Positions 50,491-50,527 of a DNA stretch of 64,000 nucleotides are shown here, piece after piece. The DNA lies in NCBI GenBank assembly GCA_026929865.2, contig CM049402.1:15481501-15545500 (forward strand), in the 5' to 3' direction. The notes under the pieces were generated by a model. It saw only the letters and a list, made by a program, of their open reading frames with translations, made no database searches and was not told where the DNA came from. This DNA is from Hyperoplus lanceolatus (lineage: Eukaryota; Chordata; Actinopteri; Uranoscopiformes; Ammodytidae). Position 1 is the stretch's first letter; each line of letters begins with the position of its first letter. A program made the position numbers and the translations under genes.

Positions 50491-50527
50491 ATGAATAGGA
50501 CTTTTCCCTTGAGAAAATGTGTTTCAG
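50491..50527 (+). CDS. fgf13: Candidate fgf13 alternative first exon, U-type
   Basis: The ATG at 50491 opens MNRTFPLRKCVS and then meets a donor TCAG|GTAGGC after the first base of a codon. This is the same phase 1 as exons V and S, so joining exon 2 gives an in-frame Glu. The mammalian U exon encodes only MALLRKSYS before the same Glu; the shared L-R-K-x-x-S core and the very short length fit. The position between V and S also matches the mammalian order. It is the first ATG in its frame after a stop at 50431-50433. The preceding 150 bases are GC-rich and contain CACGCCTC- and CACGCAGC-like stretches, unlike the surrounding intron. No transcript evidence is available, and a 12-codon match can arise by chance. 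Confidence 0.5.

Follow-up and report, generated by a model that had tools for sequence, protein, structure and literature searches.

Introduction

FGF13 exists as a set of isoforms that are generated by alternative promoters and splicing, and a knockout in mouse excitatory neurons eliminates the S and U proteins (PMC11709433). The N-terminus of S is an inactivation particle that is hit in epilepsy (PMC13388009), and A-type tails cause long-term inactivation (PMC13196787). In cultured cells, the U form, FGF13-1b, was reported to increase the Nav1.7 current and to shift its gating (PMC12259270).

The N-terminus of mammalian FGF13-U is MALLRKSYS. This was checked against PDB 4dck chain C and agrees with the tiny U exon cited in a preliminary description of the locus studied here, which proposed that a diverged, very short U-type first exon may lie between the V and S exons of a fish fgf13 gene. 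A search of the open-licence literature found no paper on a fish U exon, and the available portions of the zebrafish fgf13a/fhf2a papers contain nothing on first exons. Here, we compare the candidate exon with mammalian U and with a second fgf13 gene in the same genome, and conclude that it is probably the coding part of a diverged U-type alternative first exon.

Results

The candidate exon and its gene

The window is the whole stretch of 64,000 nucleotides that was analysed (C8:15481501-15545500 of an 807-Mb genome, G000), and it carries the 5' half of fgf13 on the + strand. The gene is identified by its S, Y, V and common exons, which match human FGF13, with 79-88% identity to the human counterparts in V, Y and S. 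The features of the window are as follows:

28052..28219, + strand: Y exon of fgf13, with a CCGCAG acceptor before it and a GTTTGT donor after it; 79% identity to human Y over 56 residues
50257..50350, + strand: element conserved with fgf13 on contig C13; 68% identity, E = 3e-6, against 22336-22426 of the joined C13 sequence (L042:2336-2426)
50351..50490, + strand: putative promoter/5' UTR stretch from the element to the ATG, G+C- and CpG-rich for the window
50491..50527, + strand: candidate U-type first exon, coding part; MNRTFPLRKCVS plus the first base of a split Glu codon, frame and donor read directly, with a counterpart on C13
54435..54624, + strand: S first exon of fgf13, coding part; donor GTCTGT, 87% identity to human S
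57807..57917, + strand: common exon 2 of fgf13, the predicted phase-1 partner of the candidate exon

The V exon, MSGKVAKPKEDKDASK with G/GTAAGA (here and below the slash marks the exon end), lies about 19.5 kb before the window (L046:470-518), and exons 3 to 5 lie beyond it (L009, L010). The order found is V, Y, candidate U, S and exon 2. Placement of the candidate between V and S is therefore true of the gene, although its nearest upstream alternative exon is Y and not V. The V-Y-candidate-S order, which places the candidate beyond V and Y, towards S and exon 2, agrees with mammals to the extent that a human translocation described in PMC11709433 leaves U and S intact while removing V, VY and Y.

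The ATG at 50491, the 12 codons MNRTFPLRKCVS and the phase-1 donor GTAGGC at 50528-50533 (G/GTAGGC), which follows an exon end of TTTCAG at 50527, were all confirmed. When joined to exon 2 at 57807, the exon is in frame and the junction reads CVSEPQLKG; the protein would begin like MNRTFPLRKCVSEPQLKG. Phase 1 fits exon 2, which the S, V and Y first exons also join in this phase. When the donors of the ATG...G/GT mini-ORFs of the window were scored by a consensus matrix, that of the candidate was among the best 8 of 249. Upstream, the frame runs to a stop at 50431 with no further ATG in between. The start context is poor, with C at -3.

The flank had been described as GC-rich, and this was borne out. 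The 300 bp upstream of the candidate have a G+C content of 0.50 and a CpG observed/expected ratio of 0.89, which are at the 96th and 95th percentiles of the 300-bp windows of the stretch. For comparison, the values from -200 to +100 of the S start are 0.50 and 0.91, and those of the 300 bp before S are 0.38 and 1.31.

Likeness to mammalian U taken alone

Only four of the last nine residues of the candidate are identical to MALLRKSYS. Among the 249 mini-ORFs of the form ATG...G/GT with 6-40 residues on both strands of the window, the candidate scores 11 against mammalian U and ties for second place, with one equal scorer in the same Y-S interval (37051-37159). In addition, 28 of 100 Markov simulations of this 26-kb interval matched mammalian U equally well or better. 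Thus, the resemblance to mammalian U is at chance level, and was rejected as proof by itself.

A different U exon elsewhere in the intron would have spoken against the candidate, and no better one was found in the window or in the preceding 30 kb. On the + strand of the window, the 20 best ungapped matches of nine residues all lack a following G/GT. Mini-ORFs in the 30 kb that precede the window reach no more than 10 in similarity to mammalian U and 14 in similarity to the candidate, and neither of these top scorers is U-like.

A second fgf13 gene on contig C13

Eleven regions outside the gene (L011-L021) were considered as further copies and set aside: six are FHF-type (in our judgement fgf11-, fgf12- or fgf14-like), two are weak matches to other FGFs, three have no match listed and none is fgf13. 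A second fgf13 gene was recognised from an FGF exon on contig C13 (L023): of 20 small regions compared, two are FHF-type, and one of these, L023, is fgf13. The comparison sequence was 30 kb that ends in exon 3 of this gene (L042-L044, C13:12964401-12994400). It holds a V-like exon, MSSKSKSKEDASK G/GTAAGT at L043:2032-2071, followed by an S exon, exon 2 and exon 3. The gene is compact, with about 0.5 kb from S to exon 2. A search of the 30 kb with human V-Y did not find a Y exon, which makes loss of Y possible, with isoforms divided between the two genes. PMC9958866 reports that black rockfish carries fgf13a and fgf13b from the teleost genome duplication, and the window and C13 genes are likely that pair.

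Between the V and S exons of the C13 gene is a mini-exon, MSFPIRRSTS G/GTAGGA (C13:12986981-12987011, L042:2581-2611). It has 10 codons versus 12 in the window, as its ATG is two codons nearer the donor, and this ATG has A at -3. Among the 75 + strand mini-ORFs of the 30 kb it is both the most similar to the candidate (25, next 12) and the most similar to mammalian U (10, next 6), to which three of nine residues are identical. The two copies share phase, have near-identical donors (TCAG/GTAGGC versus TCAG/GTAGGA) and encode similar peptides, FP[LI]R[KR]xxS. The conservation check suggested in the preliminary description was thus run on the paralogue in the same genome rather than on other fish, and core and donor are conserved. 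The L-R-K-x-x-S core first proposed holds in the window copy; with both copies, it is better written [LI]-R-[KR]-[SC]-x-S/E.

Upstream of the C13 mini-exon there is, by eye, another ATG (L042, about 2546-2584) that opens a 12-codon frame, the TGA of which overlaps the start codon of the mini-exon (ATGA). This frame might alter translation of the mini-exon if transcription begins 5' of that ATG.

Pair statistics and codon constraint

When the mini-ORFs of the Y-S interval were paired with those of the C13 V-S interval (49 x 35), the candidate and its counterpart ranked first of the 1,715 pairs, with a score of 25 versus 16 for the next. Adding similarity to mammalian U gives a summed three-way score of 45, with the next at 24. 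In three controls with one or both strands swapped, the best pairs scored 18, 14 and 24, and the best three-way sums were 29, 29 and 25, two of these three including one of the two real candidates. The pair score of 25, set against a control of 24, is by itself not overwhelming.

Anchored at the donor and aligned without gaps, TFPLRKCVS and SFPIRRSTS are identical at 13 of 27 nucleotides and have a peptide score of 26. All differences in the codons for Phe, Pro and Arg are synonymous, with two of them in Arg; the final Ser codon is unchanged, and the T/S, L/I and K/R exchanges are conservative. In 200,000 random trials that changed the sequence to equal nucleotide identity, a score of 26 was attained 86 and 83 times, while the other two frames of the aligned mini-exons score -13 and -2. 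The mini-exon is under codon-level constraint, with residues kept where nucleotides have changed.

A conserved element upstream of both mini-exons

The two introns were compared on the + strand after masking sequence that matches 38 other loci. The top matches were three pieces of a transposon present in both, followed by the element at 50257-50350, which, transposons aside, is the one clearly conserved sequence that the comparison of the introns found. Below it ranked two matches that begin within the transposon copy of the window, at E = 4e-4 and 0.003, and a third at 0.16; the best match to the reversed-sequence control also had E = 0.16. From the end of the element to the ATG there are 140 bp in the window and 154 bp on C13; for the best pair, the probability of both mini-exons landing by chance no more than 250 bp downstream of the element is about 2e-4. 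Four TAAT cores align in both copies of the element, a number reached in 33 of the 2,609 overlapping 94-bp windows in the interval. The element is presumed to be part of a U promoter or enhancer, and it is a guess that the TAAT cores point to homeodomain control.

The stretch from the element through the donor lacks clear conservation, since its score is equalled by 38 of 500 shuffles and, elsewhere, at 9 of 358 and 10 of 613 places; nucleotide conservation across it was accordingly rejected as support. A long local alignment of the region (630 versus 535 for the highest of 100 shuffles) was also set aside, as it fails to align the two exons together, and for this reason the masked search was relied upon. 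A bacterial promoter scan is inapplicable to a vertebrate and was discarded.

A repeat that is about 82% identical over 1,716 columns occurs in both fgf13 introns (window 50782-52379; L043:5625-7308). It lies 250 bp after the candidate exon in the window and about 5 kb before the mini-exon on C13, and these differing positions indicate that there were probably two separate transposon insertions.

Discussion

We conclude that 50491-50527 is probably the coding part of a diverged U-type first exon of fgf13, a reading for which the frame, donor and counterpart argue. The match is beyond chance once the second fgf13 copy is counted, and not by mammalian U alone. What tells against this reading is the identity to mammalian U of four in nine residues, versus 79-88% for V, Y and S, and the C at -3 of the window ATG.

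The alternative that survives best, though it is improbable, is that an open mini-frame with a good GT arose by chance in an ordinary intron, beside an unrelated conserved enhancer. The simulated introns that do as well against mammalian U, the strand-swapped pair at 24 and the weak start context would all fit such an origin. They have to be set against an independent C13 counterpart with the same phase and donor, the codon-level constraint (86 of 200,000) and the matched distance to a conserved element in both copies, and these findings decide for the U-type exon.

Whether a real exon is also the orthologue of mammalian U is a separate question. A teleost first exon of separate origin, which came to lie in the same interval and to have a basic stretch and a Ser end, would account for the low identity to MALLRKSYS in both copies (4/9 and 3/9) next to V, Y and S exons that are 79-88% identical to human. 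This is even less probable, given the expected interval, the same phase, the same very short length and the shared [LI]-R-[KR]-[SC]-x-S/E core. In addition, the three-way sum of 45 compares with 24 for the next and with controls of 29, 29 and 25, two of which contain a real exon themselves. Decay of a U exon that was formerly functional in both copies, with the window copy now out of use, is hardly credible, for although the weak start context of that copy and the strong divergence from mammalian U would suit it, neither copy has lost the open frame or the donor, and amino acids have been retained despite nucleotide changes.

How a U-type exon would be used we infer as follows. The transcript is presumed to start from a promoter of its own within the Y-S interval, close to the TAAT-rich element. 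The first exon of this transcript would encode a basic N-terminus of 12 residues and be spliced in phase 1 to exon 2. The predicted product is an FGF core almost without a tail, with neither the S-type inactivation particle nor the V/Y tails, and it could bind the C-termini of sodium channels and shift gating without a particle. In this fish lineage, the U N-terminus may be a fast-evolving tail whose only constraint is a basic [LI]-R-[KR]-[SC]-x-S core, the upstream element being kept in both copies. On this view, selection would mainly preserve a separate promoter for a near-tail-less FGF13, with the peptide as a near-minimal cap, a proposal in which we have middling confidence.

A coding piece of 37 bp with a drifted peptide would be missed by annotation based on protein similarity, and public isoform annotation may already include it. 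If the exon is transcribed, this fish retains a U exon in both fgf13 copies and offers a system for probing the role of the little-studied U isoform. Transcription would also suggest that little of the U tail is fixed in sequence, in contrast to the S inactivation particle.

The U isoform itself is of a kind known from mammals; what is new is a fish member that has diverged strongly, together with its counterpart in a second gene copy and the element before both. Mammalian FGF13-U (FHF2B, FGF13-1B) is like the candidate in its very short first exon, the phase-1 S/EPQLKG junction, the L-R-K-x-x-S core and its position on the S side of V/Y. It differs in having 9 codons instead of 12 and in five of the last nine residues. 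The S, V and Y first exons of the same gene are likewise alternative 5' exons that join exon 2 in phase 1, but they are longer and far closer to their human counterparts. FHF B-type first exons, such as that of FGF12-B (MESK), also place a short N-terminus before EPQLKG and do so without the A-type inactivation particle, but their peptides are dissimilar to that of the candidate.
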